Source: an uncultured Rhodospirillaceae bacterium (GTDB taxonomy: Bacteria; Pseudomonadota; Alphaproteobacteria; Rhodospirillales; Magnetospirillaceae). Taken from it: DNA of 64,000 bases. Position 1 is the first letter of the stretch. Each line of letters starts with the position of its first letter. Where the stretch lies: positions 1-64,000 of the forward strand of contig CAJANL010000199.1 of the NCBI GenBank assembly GCA_903941105.1. Reading direction: 5' to 3'. Positions 46,250 to 52,709 of the stretch are shown here, one piece after another. The position numbers were made by a program, and so were the translations under genes. Below the pieces are notes generated by a model, which saw only the letters and a program-made list of their open reading frames with translations, did no database searches and had not been told where the DNA came from.

Positions 46250-46323
46250 TGGGGGATCGTCTAACGGTAGGACAGCAGACTCTGACTCTGCTTATCGGGG
46301 TTCGAATCCCTGTCCCCCAGCCA
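46250..46323 (+). tRNA. tRNA-Gln (anticodon CTG)
   Basis: A full cloverleaf can be drawn: acceptor TGGGGGA/TCCCCCA, D arm GTC...GAC with AACGGTAGG, anticodon stem GCAGA/TCTGC with loop CTCTGAC (anticodon CTG), T arm CGGGG/CCCTG with loop TTCGAAT, discriminator G and encoded CCA. It reads CAG codons. Its 3' end serves as the integration site of the mobile element to its right, which restores the end of the gene. Confidence 0.97.
46299..46323 (+). repeat. Attachment site copy attL (tRNA-Gln 3' end)
   Basis: GGTTCGAATCCCTGTCCCCC followed by AGCCA, 25 bp covering the T arm to CCA. It is identical to 52685-52709. A tyrosine integrase gene begins 117 bp further on. Confidence 0.9.
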
Positions 46324-46439
46324 CTTTCTTCCGCACCCCCTCGGAATCCCTCGGTCTAGGCCATCGCCACCGCCGCCGGGCGCCCGCCTGTAGCACATTG
46401 GTGTCGCACATCCGGCCGCGGCCACCCGAGGCCGACACC

Positions 46440-48368
46440 ATGCCGACCCTTGCACACCTCTCGATTCGCGGGCACACCTATACGTGGCGGCGGCGCCTGC
46501 CGGTGGCCGTTGCCGCCATCGCCGGTCGCAGCCATGTCGCCCGGTCGCTGCGGACCACCGACCGACGCCGGGCCCGGCTGGCGGCGCTGAAATTGGACTT
46601 AGCCTACGAGGAAGCGATGACCAAGCTGCTGATGACCTGGGGCGCTACCCCTCCGACCAAGCTGGAGATCGACGCCATCCTCGCCGACCTCTGCCGGGTC
46701 CTCATGGATGAGGTCGAAACCTGGGCGGCCACCCGGACACCCTTCGCCAATGCCCAGACCTTCGCCGATGAAGACGACTTTTTTGCCAACGGTGGCGACA
46801 TCATCGAGGAGCAGTTTTATTCCCCCATCGGGCAGCAAGACCATTGGGAGGCGTTGCTAGAAATCGCCGACTACGACGAGGCCAAGACACGGCTCAAACC
46901 GATCCTGATGGCGCGCGGCTATTCGGTCAATGAGGGTGACGTCGCCTTCAAGAAGTTGGCCTTGCAAGCCATGAAGACGGGCATCGCCGTATTCCGGCGG
47001 GCGTCGAAGGATGTCCTCGCTGCCCCCACCGACGATGATGTGGCGGAGCTATTAGGAGAGGCCACCCCGCCGGCCAGCTTGCCGGCGGTGGTTCCGCCGT
47101 CACCATTGCCCGTTGCTGTCCAGCCCGCCGCACCGACGGCGCCCGCCGTGAACCCCGATCCCACCCTGGCGGAGGCGTTCGACAATTTCATCGCCGACAA
47201 GATCGTCGCGGATTGGAGCCCCAAGGCCAAGCGAGAGGCGCAGACTACCAAGCGCTTGGCTCTCGACTACTTCGGAGCCGATTGCCGCGTCGGCGCCATC
47301 ACCAAGAAATGGGCTAAATCCTTTCGATCCGACTTGGCCGGCATCCCCAAGCTCCAAGGCAAAGGCCGTTTCGCCGGGCTGACAATGGCAGAGGTCATTG
47401 CGGCGGCGGAAGCCCTCAACGCCGCCTACGATGAGTTCGGGGTGCCCGAGGAGGACCTGGAGTGGCCGGGTCTCACGGGTGATGGGCGGGTAGCGAGGTT
47501 GGCGCTCAAGACCGTCAACAAGCACCTGAGCTACCTCTATGGCCTGTTTGAGGCCCTGGTCGCCGAGGAGGAAACGGTCAAGCAGAACCCGTTTGCCCGC
47601 CTTCGCTACAGCAAGGCGTCGATCGCCAAAAAGGTCAATGAGCAGCGGCAGGCCTGGAGCGACGTGGACATTCAGGCGCTGCTCGCCACCCCGATTTGGC
47701 AGGGTTGCGCAACCGAAGCTCGCCCGTCCTGGTCGGGCGATAAAGTTTACAAGAACGCTGGCTACTGGACGCCGCTACTCGGCATGCTGGCCGGGCTGAG
47801 GCTAGAGGAGGCTTGCCAGCTTGCCCCCGCCGACATCGAAGACATCCATGGCATCCCCTGCATCCACATCCGGCCCGGCGAAGGAAAGACGCTCAAGACC
47901 GCCGCCGCCATTCGGCAAATCCCAATCCATCCGCTGTTGATCAAAGCCGGCCTGCTGGATCACGCCGCCGCGATGCGGAAGGCGGGGCATCGCCAGCTCT
48001 TCCCCGAGCTCGAACGGGGTGGCCAGTTCCAGCTCCTAGGCTACCGTGTCTCGCGGCGGTTCACCGATTACCGACGTCAGTGCGGCCTCTACGAACCCGG
48101 CAAGGACTTCCATAGCCTGCGACACAGCTTTAACACTCACCTTTTCCACCGGAAGATCCCAGCCGAGATGATCAGCGTCTTGATGGGGCACAAACTCGAC
48201 GGTGAGACGGCTGGCCGCTACTTCAAAGGCTACGAGGGCGAGCACTTGGCTGAGGCCATCAGCAGGATCGACTACGGAATTGACGATCGCATTCTCAAGC
48301 CGATGGGCTACGTCAAAACCGACAATTGCTCAGCAAACGCAGAGCAAATGCACCCCGATGCCCTTTGA
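46440..48368 (+). CDS. Tyrosine-type site-specific integrase
   Basis: 642 aa from the ATG at 46440, just inside attL; the track frame starting at 46155 runs through the tRNA and is not meant. The N-terminal part (LSIRGHTYTWRRRLPVAVAAIAGRSHV) resembles DUF6538, found at the front of large integrases of proteobacterial islands. A Pro/Ala-rich linker lies near 220-245, then a SAM-like core-binding domain. The catalytic domain has Arg in LAGLRLEEACQL, Lys in GEGKTLKTA, H-x-x-R in FHSLRHSF, LMGH and Tyr in GRYFKGY, all present. It should catalyse integration at and excision from tRNA-Gln. Confidence 0.93.
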   Translation: MPTLAHLSIRGHTYTWRRRLPVAVAAIAGRSHVARSLRTTDRRRARLAALKLDLAYEEAMTKLLMTWGATPPTKLEIDAILADLCRVLMDEVETWAATRTPFANAQTFADEDDFFANGGDIIEEQFYSPIGQQDHWEALLEIADYDEAKTRLKPILMARGYSVNEGDVAFKKLALQAMKTGIAVFRRASKDVLAAPTDDDVAELLGEATPPASLPAVVPPSPLPVAVQPAAPTAPAVNPDPTLAEAFDNFIADKIVADWSPKAKREAQTTKRLALDYFGADCRVGAITKKWAKSFRSDLAGIPKLQGKGRFAGLTMAEVIAAAEALNAAYDEFGVPEEDLEWPGLTGDGRVARLALKTVNKHLSYLYGLFEALVAEEETVKQNPFARLRYSKASIAKKVNEQRQAWSDVDIQALLATPIWQGCATEARPSWSGDKVYKNAGYWTPLLGMLAGLRLEEACQLAPADIEDIHGIPCIHIRPGEGKTLKTAAAIRQIPIHPLLIKAGLLDHAAAMRKAGHRQLFPELERGGQFQLLGYRVSRRFTDYRRQCGLYEPGKDFHSLRHSFNTHLFHRKIPAEMISVLMGHKLDGETAGRYFKGYEGEHLAEAISRIDYGIDDRILKPMGYVKTDNCSANAEQMHPDAL

Positions 48369-48835
48369 AATTTAACGAAAATCCGACTCGGTGTCGTGGT
48401 TTAACGGCGCAGGCCAATGCGGCGGTGGATGGCGCCAACGGTTCGGAATTGGTGTTTCTTGGGGGGCAGGCAGGCCATCGCCTGCCCAAGCCCACCTGTT
48501 CGATAATTCTCGTTTGGCGTGTCCTTGCTTGAGGAATATCGCGTAAAGGCGGATAATTTCGATTAATAATTGCCGGTTCATTGACTTGGCGCGTTATGGT
48601 TGATTTCGGATAGGGCTGTTTTTTCGCCCGTGAGGGCGGTTGCGCGCCCCCCTTGGCACCTATGTTCCACGGGCCTTTTGGGCCGCTCTCTGTGATGCGG
48701 GTTGTTCCTCGCCGACGGGGATCACCCGATACTCACAGTTCTTCACATTATCATCCCGCCACCGACAGGAATACAGCCGCCACCATTTCCACGACACCAA
48801 TATCCGTAACTAGTAACGCAGCTAGGAACGGATCA
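48369..48835. other. Gene-free stretch inside the mobile element
   Basis: After the integrase stop a hairpin GGGCAGGC-aggccatc-GCCTGCCC (48463-48486) may act as terminator. From 48500 to 48620 the DNA is AT-rich (gcggataatttcgattaataattgcc), unlike the rest of the window, with TTGACT at about 48581 as a possible -35 box. No frame is convincing. This is a natural place for a promoter or control region of the element. Confidence 0.45.
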
Positions 48836-49276
48836 ATGCTCGAAAACATTCACAATGACCCCGACGAATCCGATGATGACGCCGCTCACAACGACGCTAT
48901 CTCTGACGACGATCTCCGTGCCCGTGGGCTGACCAAAGTAATGGCATGGGTCGAGGACAAGTCCGGCATCGAGACCAAGTCCAAGGCTGCCGGCCGGACG
49001 AGCCGACATCGTCAAAAATTGGCCGCGCTCGGTATCGTGCAATTTAATCTTGACGCCCCCGCCGCTGATGACGCCCGCGCCGCCCTTAAGGCCGCTGCCG
49101 CCGCGCTCATTAACGGTCAACTCGACTCCGGAACTCTCCACACCGTCGCCCTCGGCGCGGTGCCCGACCAAGGGGCGGCCGAAGGGCTGTCGGCCGATCT
49201 CGCGGCTTGCCAGCGGGCGTTAGAAGCCGGTGGGTGGCGGGGCTGGGCGGTGCGCCGCCTCGTCGGGATTGCTTAA
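48836..49276 (+). CDS. Hypothetical element protein, possible RHH-type DNA-binding protein
   Basis: 146 aa from the ATG at 48836, with AGGAA upstream. The first 25 residues are very acidic (DPDESDDDAAHND). The middle AGRTSRHRQKLAALGIVQFNL resembles the ribbon-helix-helix start of small antitoxin or MobC-like DNA-binding proteins, where R-x-R-L-x-x-x-G-h is followed by a beta strand. The C-terminal half is Ala-rich helix. It converges with the serine recombinase gene, the stops overlapping by 4 bp. A regulator of excision or mobilization is a guess. Confidence 0.55.
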   Translation: MLENIHNDPDESDDDAAHNDAISDDDLRARGLTKVMAWVEDKSGIETKSKAAGRTSRHRQKLAALGIVQFNLDAPAADDARAALKAAAAALINGQLDSGTLHTVALGAVPDQGAAEGLSADLAACQRALEAGGWRGWAVRRLVGIA

Positions 49277-49956
49277 TCGCCCGCGCATCGGGCGACCACA
49301 TTGCGGACGGTCGTCGGGTACCAGCGCCGGCCCCGGGCGGTGCGGATGCCGCGCGCGTTCAGGGCCTCGGCCACACCGGCAAACGTGGCGATGCCGGCCG
49401 CCTCAATCTGCTGGATGACGGGTCTTAGGGCGAGGGCAAACGAATCGGCGCGGTCACGTCCAGCGGCGGCTCCCCTGGCCGATGCCCGGCGCTGTTCTTC
49501 GTGGCGGCCGGGAATCGACCATCCGAGCCGCTGGCCGCGCGCCTTGGCCGCACCAAGGGCGGCCGATGTCCGGGCGCTAATCGCCTCGGCCTCGTGTTCC
49601 GCGACAGCCGCCATGATGTGGATCGTCAGCCTGTTCGCCTCTGGATAATCGCAAGCCAGGAATTCAACCCCGGCCACCATCAAACCTGAGATGAAGTGGA
49701 CGTTACGGGCTAGACGGTCGAGCTTGGCGATGACCAAGATGGCGCCATCCTGCCGGCAGCGGTCGAGGGCACGGGCGAGCGCCGGGCGGTCCACACGGCG
49801 TCCGGTTTCGATCTCAGTCTCCTCGCCGTTGACCACACCACCGACGCCCCGAACGTAGGCAGTGACCGCCGCCTGCTGGGCTTCAAGGCCTAGGCCGGAT
49901 TGCCCCTGGCGGTCGGTGCTGACGCGGTAATATGCGATGAACCTCTTGGCCTCCAT
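49273..49956 (-). CDS. Serine recombinase, resolvase/invertase family
   Basis: 227 aa from the ATG at 49956 (GGAG 8 bp upstream); a GTG at 49983 would add 9 residues. The catalytic domain has YRVSTDRQGQSGLGLEAQ with the nucleophile Ser, LVIAKLDRLARNVHFISGL with the active-site Arg pair, and AEHEAEAISART. The C-terminal HTH part has GIATFAGVAEALNARGIRTARG and the minor-groove segment WYPTTVRNVV. It is of resolvase size, not a large serine integrase. It may resolve dimers of the excised circle or relaxed intermediates. It lies 45 bp after the relaxase gene. Confidence 0.92.
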   Translation of the reverse strand: MEAKRFIAYYRVSTDRQGQSGLGLEAQQAAVTAYVRGVGGVVNGEETEIETGRRVDRPALARALDRCRQDGAILVIAKLDRLARNVHFISGLMVAGVEFLACDYPEANRLTIHIMAAVAEHEAEAISARTSAALGAAKARGQRLGWSIPGRHEEQRRASARGAAAGRDRADSFALALRPVIQQIEAAGIATFAGVAEALNARGIRTARGRRWYPTTVRNVVARCAGD

Positions 49957-50001
49957 GGCCGTTCTCCGTTCAGTTAGAAACACGCTACGTTCGTTGGGGA
50001 T

Positions 50002-51273
50002 TTACAACTCGGGGCCGGCCCGCTGATGCGCCCGCATAGGGGTCGCCGGCGGCGGCGCCTTCGGCCCCCATGACGCGGTTGATCGGCTCGGGGTGATGCG
50101 GCGCCAATCCACCCGGCCGAACACGGCGGCCATCGCCGAGCCGGCGGCGGCAACCGACTGCCCAACCCGCCGTCCGACTGCTTCGGCCTGGGCGATCAGT
50201 GCCACCAGCGCAGAAGGACGGTAGCGGCCAGGGCGATCCCGGCGCCGGTCGTCAGCCACAGCAGGGGCGTCCCCACCCTCGGCGACACCGGCGGCCGGGC
50301 CGCAAGGCGGCTCAACTGCGCGGTCAACTCGGAAAGCTGCTGAGTCACCGCCTGAAGCGACCTGACCGGCTCCTTGAAGCCGGCCAGCGTCGCCTGCGTC
50401 TGCTGTGCCAATCGGTCGATACCCTGGGCGGCCGTGGCGATCCGGGCCTGGGCTGCCCTTGTGTCCGCAAGGTTGTGAACGAAGAATTCCGTCGGGTCCT
50501 GATCCATGATCGTCGTGCTCCTGCTGCTGAGCGTGGGCGGCGTTGAGGCGCCGCACCAGCGCGTTGGTTTCGGCGCGGGTGCTGCCCTCGTCGATCTCGG
50601 CCCAGGCACGATTGCCGGGGCCGGAAGTGGTCTTGCTGGTGGCGGCCTGGCCCTTGTCGGCGATGGCGCGGGCGCGCGGCCCCTCGTGGATCGTGGGCAG
50701 GCGGTCGATGCCGCGATCTCGGTACGATCGATGGTCGATCATGCTCTCGGGGCCGTAGCCCCAGGCCGTCATCATCCCGTTATGGATTTCTGTCCAGGCG
50801 GCCCGAAGGGCCTCCAGCGCCCCCTTGCGGGACATGCCGATGATCTTCGAAGGCCGTCCGCCCTTGCCCCCCGGCGGGCGCGGCCATGGCTCGTCGTAGG
50901 CGGCGATGTGGGCGTGCGGGTTGGCGGCCGCCCTGCCCTGGGCGTGGAGGACGGCAACGTAGGGAGCGGCGCCCTGGGTAATGTGCTCGGCCAGGGCGGT
51001 CATCAGCGCCACTTGTTGCGCCCTCGTCGCCTCCAGCGGCAACGCGACGATGATTTTTTCGACGATGCGGCCGTTCTTCCCCGCAGCGGCCGCCCGCGCG
51101 GCACAATATTCCCGCAATGCGGGTCTGCTGTGGTCGGCGAGGCCGGTGCGTTGATCGACCACCTCGACCGTCGTCCGCGAGTGAACGATGTAGATCAGGT
51201 GCCCGGCCGTCCGGCCCTTGGCCCCCAGCTCATGGATGGCGATGTGGTCGTGGTCGAGGCTGTAGAGGGCCAT
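50002..51273 (-). CDS. MobA/MobL-like relaxase
   Basis: 423 aa. MALYSLDHDHIAIHELGAKG is the N-terminal segment, in which relaxases carry the catalytic Tyr; AVLHAQGRAAANPHAHIAAYDE near residue 119 is the H-...-N-P-H-x-H metal motif. It should nick at oriT and lead the strand to a recipient. Residues about 260-355 overlap another gene in a different frame and look like arginine/glycine-rich shadow; the last 65 residues (VALIAQAEAVGRR...) again look like real protein and might be a separate product from a GTG near 50207. It overlaps the 130-aa gene by TGATG. Confidence 0.78.
   Translation of the reverse strand: MALYSLDHDHIAIHELGAKGRTAGHLIYIVHSRTTVEVVDQRTGLADHSRPALREYCAARAAAAGKNGRIVEKIIVALPLEATRAQQVALMTALAEHITQGAAPYVAVLHAQGRAAANPHAHIAAYDEPWPRPPGGKGGRPSKIIGMSRKGALEALRAAWTEIHNGMMTAWGYGPESMIDHRSYRDRGIDRLPTIHEGPRARAIADKGQAATSKTTSGPGNRAWAEIDEGSTRAETNALVRRLNAAHAQQQEHDDHGSGPDGILRSQPCGHKGSPGPDRHGRPGYRPIGTADAGDAGRLQGAGQVASGGDSAAFRVDRAVEPPCGPAAGVAEGGDAPAVADDRRRDRPGRYRPSALVALIAQAEAVGRRVGQSVAAAGSAMAAVFGRVDWRRITPSRSTASWGPKAPPPATPMRAHQRAGPEL
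50196..50507 (-). CDS. Small membrane protein nested in the relaxase gene, MobB-like
   Basis: 103 aa from the ATG at 50507 (AGGAG upstream), in another frame inside the relaxase gene. MDQDPTEFFVHNLADTRAAQ leads into a long Gln/Leu-rich helix of coiled-coil type (LAQQTQATLAGFKEPVRSLQ), then one C-terminal membrane helix (LLWLTTGAGIALAATVLLRWW). Composition is natural, whereas the relaxase frame is shadow-like here. In RSF1010 the mobB gene is nested in mobA and encodes a membrane protein that helps contact with the transfer machine; this has the same layout. No sequence kinship is claimed. Confidence 0.7.
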   Translation of the reverse strand: MDQDPTEFFVHNLADTRAAQARIATAAQGIDRLAQQTQATLAGFKEPVRSLQAVTQQLSELTAQLSRLAARPPVSPRVGTPLLWLTTGAGIALAATVLLRWWH

Positions 51274-51665
51274 CAGCGGGTAACCCCGAATGGGGTTACC
51301 CTGAGGTGCGCCCTCCTCCCTCCTTCTTGTCCTGCCTTCCTCCCGGTCCCTTCCCAGCCAGGGCGCCGGAACCGCCCGGCCAACCGGGCGGCAATGTGGA
51401 GGTCATGGGCGAAGACGTCGGCAGCGACCCCCCAGGCGCGAACGGCGAGCCAGACGGCAACGGCGTTGTCGTTGTCGAAGTTGGCGTCCAGGGCGACAGC
51501 GAGGTCCGCGAGGTCGCGGTTATCCGGCTGTCCTGTTTCGACGATCCGGCGAACGAGGCCGACGAAGGCGGTGGCGTGTTGGTGCTGCACGGGGTATCTC
51601 GATTGGTGGCTCCAATCGGGATATGGGCGCAGCGCGAAGGCGCCGAAGGGTGTTTTTGCGGCCAC
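51273..51665 (-). CDS. Hypothetical protein, first gene of the mob operon
   Basis: 130 aa from a GTG at 51665. The core (LADLAVALDANFDNDNAVAVWLAVRAWGVAADVFAHDLHIAARL) is helical, and the C-terminal 30 residues are basic and Gly-rich (GRFRRPGWEGTGRKAGQEGGRR). Its end overlaps the relaxase start (TGATG), so it is translated with it. Position directly after the oriT candidate and before the relaxase fits a MobC-type accessory protein, but no MobC motif is seen. Confidence 0.55.
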   Translation of the reverse strand: MAAKTPFGAFALRPYPDWSHQSRYPVQHQHATAFVGLVRRIVETGQPDNRDLADLAVALDANFDNDNAVAVWLAVRAWGVAADVFAHDLHIAARLAGRFRRPGWEGTGRKAGQEGGRRAHLRVTPFGVTR

Positions 51666-51684
51666 CCCGGCTACGAGCCGGAAG

Positions 51685-51736
51685 CCAGGGCCATAGCGTC
51701 CGCCGTCAGGCGGAGGCTTAAATCCCCTTGCCCTGG
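51685..51736. other. Nested inverted repeats, candidate oriT
   Basis: CCAGGGC (51685-51691) pairs with GCCCTGG (51730-51736), and inside lies TCCGCC-gtca-GGCGGA (51699-51714). The site is between the leftward mob operon and the rightward permease gene, where oriT regions of mobilizable elements usually lie. It could instead be a terminator or operator. Confidence 0.4.
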
Positions 51737-51801
51737 GTCCAAGGCGGCAGCATTATCAACCTCGCTCAACACGCAGTCGCATAATTTTTCGGGAGTTGAA
51801 C

Positions 51802-52401
51802 ATGGGCAGATTCATTAAGATCATTGGCGCGGCGGTCGCCGTCGTTCTGGCCTCCGGGGCCGCCGAAGCTCATACTTTCGGTTTGCATGGGGCCGGTTTC
51901 GAACACGGTTTCGGCCACCCCTTCGGTGGCCTTGATCACCTTCTGGCGATGGTGACCGTTGGCTTATGGGCTGCCCAGCGCGGCGGCAGGGCCGTCTGGT
52001 TGGTCCCGGCCACCTTCATGGCTGCGATGGTCTTTGGCGGCCTGCTCGGACTGGAAGGTATCGCGCTGCCGATGGTCGAACTCGGCATTGCGGCGTCGCT
52101 GATGGTCCTCGGCTCCGTCGTGGCCTTTTCGTTCCAACCGCCGCTGTGGGTTGGCATGAGCATGGTGGCGGCGTTCGCCATCTTCCATGGGCACGCACAT
52201 GGCGCCGAAATGCCCGAGGCTGCATCGCCGGTCCTCTATGCGGTGGGTTTCCTGCTCGCAACGGGCCTACTTCATTCCATCGGCGTCTCCGCCTGCCTGT
52301 TGGCTCGCCGCAAGGAAGTGTTTGCCACCTTCGCGGATCGGGCGATTCGCTCGGCCGGCGCCGTTGTCGCCGCCAGCGGGGTGCTGTTCGCGTTTCTATG
52401 A
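51802..52401 (+). CDS. HupE/UreJ family metal permease
   Basis: 199 aa from the ATG at 51802 (GGGAG 7 bp upstream). A cleaved signal-like first helix ending AEAHTFG is followed by HGFGHPFGGLDHLLAMVTVGLWAAQ, the His/Asp motif of HupE/UreJ, and AIFHGHAHGAEMPEA, the second His-rich metal motif. Six to seven membrane segments. Members move nickel or cobalt, often for hydrogenase or urease, neither of which is in the window. It is the only evident cargo of the mobile element. A hairpin follows. Confidence 0.9.
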   Translation: MGRFIKIIGAAVAVVLASGAAEAHTFGLHGAGFEHGFGHPFGGLDHLLAMVTVGLWAAQRGGRAVWLVPATFMAAMVFGGLLGLEGIALPMVELGIAASLMVLGSVVAFSFQPPLWVGMSMVAAFAIFHGHAHGAEMPEAASPVLYAVGFLLATGLLHSIGVSACLLARRKEVFATFADRAIRSAGAVVAASGVLFAFL

Positions 52402-52684
52402 CATGATTGGGGTGGGGTAGCGCGCTGGTTGCCTGCCTCACCTCCTCAGTCAAGGGGGGCAGGGCACCGCCCTGCGGCGAGCATCATCGCCATATCCGCC
52501 CCCACCTGGTCGGCCCGCGCGGTTGGCCTCGCCGCCCCACCGCCGTCCTCGCGTCCTGCCGAGCAATCCGGCGTAACCGCCGGCACAGCCGCCGTTGCCT
52601 GTGGCACACCGTTGTGGCACATTTCACCCCATCCCTGTTGGCCTTCACCCTGGAGGCCGAGGAAATGTGCGACGCTGCGGGACC
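52402..52684. other. Right arm of the mobile element without a gene
   Basis: Apart from the hairpin at 52459-52475 nothing can be recognised. The track ORFs are Arg/Pro-rich shadows. The stretch ends at the right attachment repeat. Confidence 0.4.
52459..52475 (+). terminator. Hairpin after the HupE-type gene
   Basis: GCAGGGC-acc-GCCCTGC, a perfect 7-bp stem 58 bp after the stop, without a T-run. Confidence 0.4.
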
Positions 52685-52709
52685 GGTTCGAATCCCTGTC
52701 CCCCAGCCA
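52685..52709 (+). repeat. Attachment site copy attR
   Basis: A 25-bp exact copy of the tRNA-Gln 3' end (GGTTCGAATCCCTGTCCCCC plus AGCCA) without the rest of a tRNA. It marks the right junction of the element; the sequence beyond should be the original flank of the tRNA gene. Confidence 0.9.

Follow-up and report, generated by a model that had tools for sequence, protein, structure and literature searches.

The locus and the mobilizable island

The window (the whole stretch analysed, 64,000 nucleotides from an uncultured Rhodospirillaceae bacterium) carries an island whose features are given in Table 1. Judged from its sequence, the island is an integrative mobilizable element: it has an integrase, tRNA end repeats, a relaxase and a putative oriT, and no secretion system. 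No match to VirB4 or to a coupling protein was found in the host genome; transfer would therefore need a helper. The HupE/UreJ gene is probably cargo of the island.

Table 1. Coordinates of the island, of its genes and of the sites discussed (window positions)
Feature	Coordinates	Strand	Remarks
Island	46299-52709		About 6.4 kb, bounded by exact 25-bp tRNA-Gln repeats
Left end repeat	46299..46323	(+)	3′ end of tRNA-Gln (tRNA 46250-46323); exact 25-bp repeat
Tyrosine integrase of the island	46440..48368	(+)	Adjoins tRNA-Gln
Serine recombinase (resolvase) gene	49273..49956	(-)	Downstream of the relaxase gene
MOBQ (MobA/MobL) relaxase gene	50002..51273	(-)	423 aa; PF03389 domain, 3e-17; profile match to 2ns6 (R1162 MobA relaxase structure), 6e-12; Foldseek fold match to 2ns6, probability 1.00
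Predicted C-terminal relaxase helix	50116..50214	(-)	Residues 354-386; mostly past the nested stop
Nested gene (mobB-like)	50196..50507	(-)	ATG at 50507, stop ending at 50196; 103 aa + stop; two predicted helices and a predicted C-terminal membrane helix (residues 81-99)
Shine-Dalgarno-like AGGAG	50518..50522	(-)	10 nt upstream of the nested ATG
Putative MOBQ oriT core	51297..51315	(+)	TACCCTGAGGTGCGCCCTC; 2 mismatches to the published consensus
HupE/UreJ family gene	51802-52401	(+)	Nickel/hydrogenase-type accessory membrane protein; PF04955, 3e-56; beside the right end repeat
Right end repeat	52685..52709	(+)	Exact 25-bp copy of the left repeat

The putative oriT core is a site of the TAAGTGCGCCCT type (consensus from PMC3832669) found near the relaxase gene; 0.24 such sites per 64 kb are expected by chance at 3 or fewer mismatches. 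At four other loci (L027, L041, L047 and L004), equivalent oriT-like sites precede the relaxase by 63-82 bp, and RSF1010 has one too. The putative core and the lack of VirB4 and coupling-protein matches fit an element that needs a helper.

Two further ORFs of the island were considered. The 130-aa ORF at 51273-51665 (-), upstream of the relaxase and a candidate partner, contains the putative oriT; no family and, among the loci read, no homologue was found for it, and it was rejected as probably not a gene. The 146-aa ORF at 48836-49276 (+), of unknown family, runs convergently to the serine recombinase gene, the end of which it overlaps. The promoter scan gave no signal above chance.

The host relaxase

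The relaxase is of the MOBQ (MobA/MobL) type by its domain, its fold and its motifs I and III. The catalytic tyrosine of motif I (Y28) and the three metal-binding histidines of motif III (H110, H120, H122) are invariant in 20 relatives; the corresponding residues of R1162 are given in PMC6856555. The nuclease domain and the helix at residues 354-386 are modelled confidently. Residues 257-352 have a pLDDT below 50, which may partly stem from poor alignment there; this stretch coincides with the part of the relaxase covered by the nested frame (residues 256-358). The tail of Rhodobacterales relaxases carries the motif RRVYRELxMLRDTLRARL.

The nested frame in the window

The first-pass annotation had proposed a small membrane-protein gene, with its own ribosome site, lying out of frame inside the relaxase gene. 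Its coordinates, strand and length were confirmed, and an AGGAG precedes its ATG by 10 nt (Table 1). The frame is +1 relative to the relaxase ORF (51273-50002) and lies entirely within it: its first codon falls at relaxase residue 256, and 63 aa of the relaxase follow beyond its stop. The C-terminal membrane helix that had been claimed is borne out by two predictions. A single hydrophobic segment is found at nested residues 81-99 (Kyte-Doolittle mean 1.75; over the same stretch, at most 0.35 in the relaxase frame and at most 0.10 in the third frame), and AlphaFold2 gives helices at 5-43 and 45-70 and a C-terminal helix at 81-102 (mean pLDDT 75.7). The nested protein is thus predicted to be helical, with a C-terminal membrane helix.

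The window alone gives mixed evidence for a gene. When the relaxase codons of the overlap were permuted, the +1 frame stayed open in 80% of trials (p 0.80), and the open length of the nested frame was dropped as evidence. A segment as hydrophobic as nested residues 81-99 arose in 7% of trials (p 0.07, borderline). The codon-phase signal is clearer. At codon positions 1, 2 and 3 of the relaxase frame, the domain has a GC content of 0.69/0.53/0.87, the overlap one of 0.86/0.67/0.54 and the tail one of 0.73/0.70/0.81; the nested frame shows 0.67/0.54/0.85 in the overlap, a coding pattern. Since the third-position GC of the relaxase frame goes from 0.87 to 0.54 and back to 0.81, the coding phase shifts to the nested frame and then returns. 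This signal supports the nested frame.

Homologues and conservation

A scan of genome contigs with the relaxase alignment yielded 24 loci of the same type (L027-L050; nearly all alphaproteobacterial, 36-49% identity). Searches of plasmids and whole genomes added L014, L018, L003 and others; in the viral contigs scanned, no relaxase was confirmed. All 20 homologues with an intact relaxase frame and the C-terminal region have, at the same place, a +1-frame ORF of 95-116 aa with a start codon and a ribosome site. These ORFs start between relaxase residues 234 and 249 (in the window, at 256) and leave a relaxase tail of 32-65 aa. When the window is included, the +1 frame is open and the +2 frame closed in 21/21 intact loci. 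The comparative evidence, as read from these sequences, is what removes the doubt left by the single-sequence chance tests.

Frameshifts or truncations are found in five loci (L014, L032, L040, L045, L049). L040 and L014 combine a broken relaxase with an intact nested frame; one indel disrupts both frames in L032. The reverse case, a broken nested frame beside a conserved relaxase, had been named beforehand as the one that would speak against the gene; it was looked for and found in none of the homologues having the C-terminal region. In a close relative from Magnetospirillum moscoviense (L002/L041), the relaxase C-terminus is unrelated and the nested frame is absent.

L040 (275-1367) comes from Pseudoponticoccus marisrubri; its relaxase frame is broken early, through decay or sequencing error. 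On the Thioclava plasmid p3 (L014, 3527-3835), the nested frame is annotated as 'hypothetical protein', and the relaxase, the frame of which is interrupted upstream, bears no annotation. The contig of L044 is labelled as a Flavobacteriaceae MAG, yet carries a copy of the Rhodobacterales type; it is probably misbinned. At L004 (1153-1602), a relaxase that comes from the family of the window, but from another MOBQ branch, has at the same place a +1-frame ORF for a predicted helical membrane protein.

The window's nested protein shows no clear similarity to the nested proteins of Rhodobacterales (hhalign 7.6%) or to that of the nearest homologue (BLASTP E 0.09). The link between them therefore rests on position, frame and topology in homologous relaxases.

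Selection in the two frames

dN/dS was obtained as a counting estimate, in which differences are classed by their effect in each frame; the synonymous classes are near saturation and the ratios are approximate. The sample consists of Rhodobacterales-type homologues: the window's own branch has distant relatives only, and no closer one was found in the collections searched. In the overlap, the best-sampled clade gives 0.17 (0.11-0.24) for the nested frame and 0.63 (0.46-0.86) for the relaxase frame. Applied to the relaxase domain as a control, the same method gives the relaxase a ratio of 0.08-0.09 and the pseudo +1 frame one of 0.74-1.00. In the relaxase tail the nested signal is gone (+1 frame 0.87-1.04, relaxase 0.49-0.78). 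The constraint therefore moves to the nested frame across its own stretch, and these estimates indicate that the nested protein is under purifying selection in the window's relatives.

The comparison of both frames in homologues, suggested in the first-pass annotation as a check, thus favours the nested frame. The same annotation had described the relaxase frame as shadow sequence in this stretch. This holds to the extent that its constraint is much weaker in the overlap than in the domain; the frame is not lost, however, but resumes past the nested stop with a conserved helical tail. The relaxase would tolerate a second gene here since the part that is overlaid is a predicted disordered linker, the residues of which hardly matter if the frame stays open.

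Proposed function and alternatives

The nested frame is quite probably a real gene, translated from its own ribosome site on an integrative mobilizable element and encoding a functional counterpart of RSF1010 MobB. In RSF1010, mobA/repB contains mobB in a different frame, and mobilization cannot do without MobB (PMC2200642). The transport signals of R1162 MobA were located in residues 204-323 and 322-387 (PMC10025392); they are said, in the title of Parker and Meyer 2007, to need MobB. By its coordinates, RSF1010 MobB covers MobA residues about 250-387, nearly the same stretch. A MobB-like anchor is therefore the best explanation.

From the island elements and from the position, frame, conservation and selection of the nested gene, all of which can be read in the DNA, we infer a role made up of anchoring, binding and presentation. 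The C-terminal helix would serve as a tail anchor in the inner membrane, the N-terminal helices lying in the cytoplasm. The protein would bind the relaxase, probably at the linker or the C-terminal helix of the relaxase, and could stabilise the relaxosome at oriT and hold it at the inner membrane. It may also present the complex of relaxase and DNA to a helper's type IV secretion system, at the coupling protein.

A selected gene with another role (exclusion at the surface or on entry, a defence against incoming elements, or a membrane toxin retaining the island) is improbable, even though the protein belongs to no recognisable family and a small protein with a single C-terminal membrane helix suits several roles. 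Throughout, the nested gene accompanies the relaxase gene, at one fixed point and in one frame; this arrangement is documented for a relaxosome partner, and RSF1010 has a required relaxase partner at that very place. Still less probable is a row of three consecutive genes (a short relaxase followed by the membrane protein and by a separate small downstream ORF), the open relaxase frame in the overlap being accidental. Such a row would agree with the nearly neutral relaxase frame of the overlap (0.63-1.04) and its predicted disorder. It is opposed by the absence of stops in that frame across the overlap in 21/21 loci, in each of which the +2 frame has stops, and by a tail that aligns without a conserved start codon, shows some constraint in the relaxase frame (0.49-0.78) and includes a predicted helix. 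That only the relaxase is translated and the nested frame is open by chance in GC-rich DNA would suit the permutation results in the window (open length p 0.80, hydrophobic segment p 0.07), but has a negligible probability given the frames open in +1 and closed in +2 in 21/21 intact loci, the conserved start and ribosome site, the GC phase switch, and the selection test in relatives, which contradicts it (nested dN/dS 0.17, controls near 1).

Significance

The nested gene, for which the role of a MobB-like partner is preferred, is real, conserved and unannotated; its place is of a known kind, its sequence its own. In the open-access literature searched, no earlier account of the alphaproteobacterial nested set was found. 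Few fully nested bacterial gene pairs have clear evidence of selection. With 21 elements and a constraint measurable in each frame, the set is a natural case for the onset of overprinting, to which a disordered linker gives room, and for the survival of both products. It adds a MobB-like partner for mobilizable islands of alphaproteobacteria that is absent from the family libraries searched, and it indicates that helpers of the MobB type can be found by position once sequence similarity is lost. Gene callers that bar long overlaps miss either the nested gene or the relaxase; on Thioclava p3 it is the relaxase that is uncalled, its frame also being interrupted upstream.

Comparison with known systems

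The mobB-in-mobA plan of RSF1010, to which the first-pass annotation had likened the locus, is matched in frame and almost to the residue. Like RSF1010/R1162 MobB (IncQ1; PF17511), the window's nested gene lies in a MOBQ relaxase gene, in the +1 frame and with its own ribosome site. It starts at relaxase residue 256 (about 250 for RSF1010 mobB), with AGGAG 10 nt before the ATG (GGAGG at 9 nt in RSF1010). Both proteins have N-terminal helices and a C-terminal membrane helix (predicted in the window's protein), and an RSF1010-like oriT core lies upstream. The differences are as follows. The window's nested protein has 103 aa and no tail beyond the membrane helix; RSF1010 MobB has 137 aa. The window's relaxase has a short helical tail and no primase domain, unlike that of RSF1010. 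Genes of the window's type are carried by chromosomal islands, and RSF1010 mobB by a plasmid with IncQ replication genes.

Neither the window's nested protein nor 19 homologues match PF17511 (Mobilization_B), for which the RSF1010 MobB control gives 1e-61, and the profile comparison of the nested proteins with IncQ/RSF1010 MobB gives an hhalign probability of 0.4%. The proteins are classed by their presumed MobB-like function and kept apart from the PF17511 family. The nested proteins have no match among Pfam and NCBIfam mobilization families (Pfam: 20 members searched), and tblastn on plasmids found nothing.

MbeB and MbeD of ColE1 (MOBP5) are encoded within mbeA. They are likewise small mobilization proteins encoded in another frame inside a relaxase gene, but the relaxase belongs to another family, and the nested proteins of the window's type match none of the Pfam mobilization families.

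Alphaproteobacterial MOBQ relaxases with a related domain (L016, L105-L111) have an adjacent gene for a VirD4-type coupling protein and no nested frame. Conversely, no coupling-protein gene was found in the sequence read around the nested-gene loci, which spans about 3 kb at most. Few independent lineages are involved, and this contrast is a lead only.

The locus had been proposed as an independent or distant case of the RSF1010 plan. No sequence link to RSF1010 MobB is found, and a single origin is not rejected. In the relaxase tree (38 rows), the nested genes require three changes. A first AU test, in which all nested rows formed one clade without L041, rejected that clade; the reason is that L041 sits among these rows, although the region has been lost or replaced in it. 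With L041 included, a single origin comprising RSF1010 is not rejected (p 0.12). It is conceivable, though somewhat doubtful, that overprinting in the disordered MOBQ linker gave rise to a membrane helper more than once, each time at this site and in the +1 frame, plasmids of the RSF1010 type and alphaproteobacterial islands being separate cases. If so, relaxases that lack their own coupling protein would acquire a MobB-like anchor in this way again and again.
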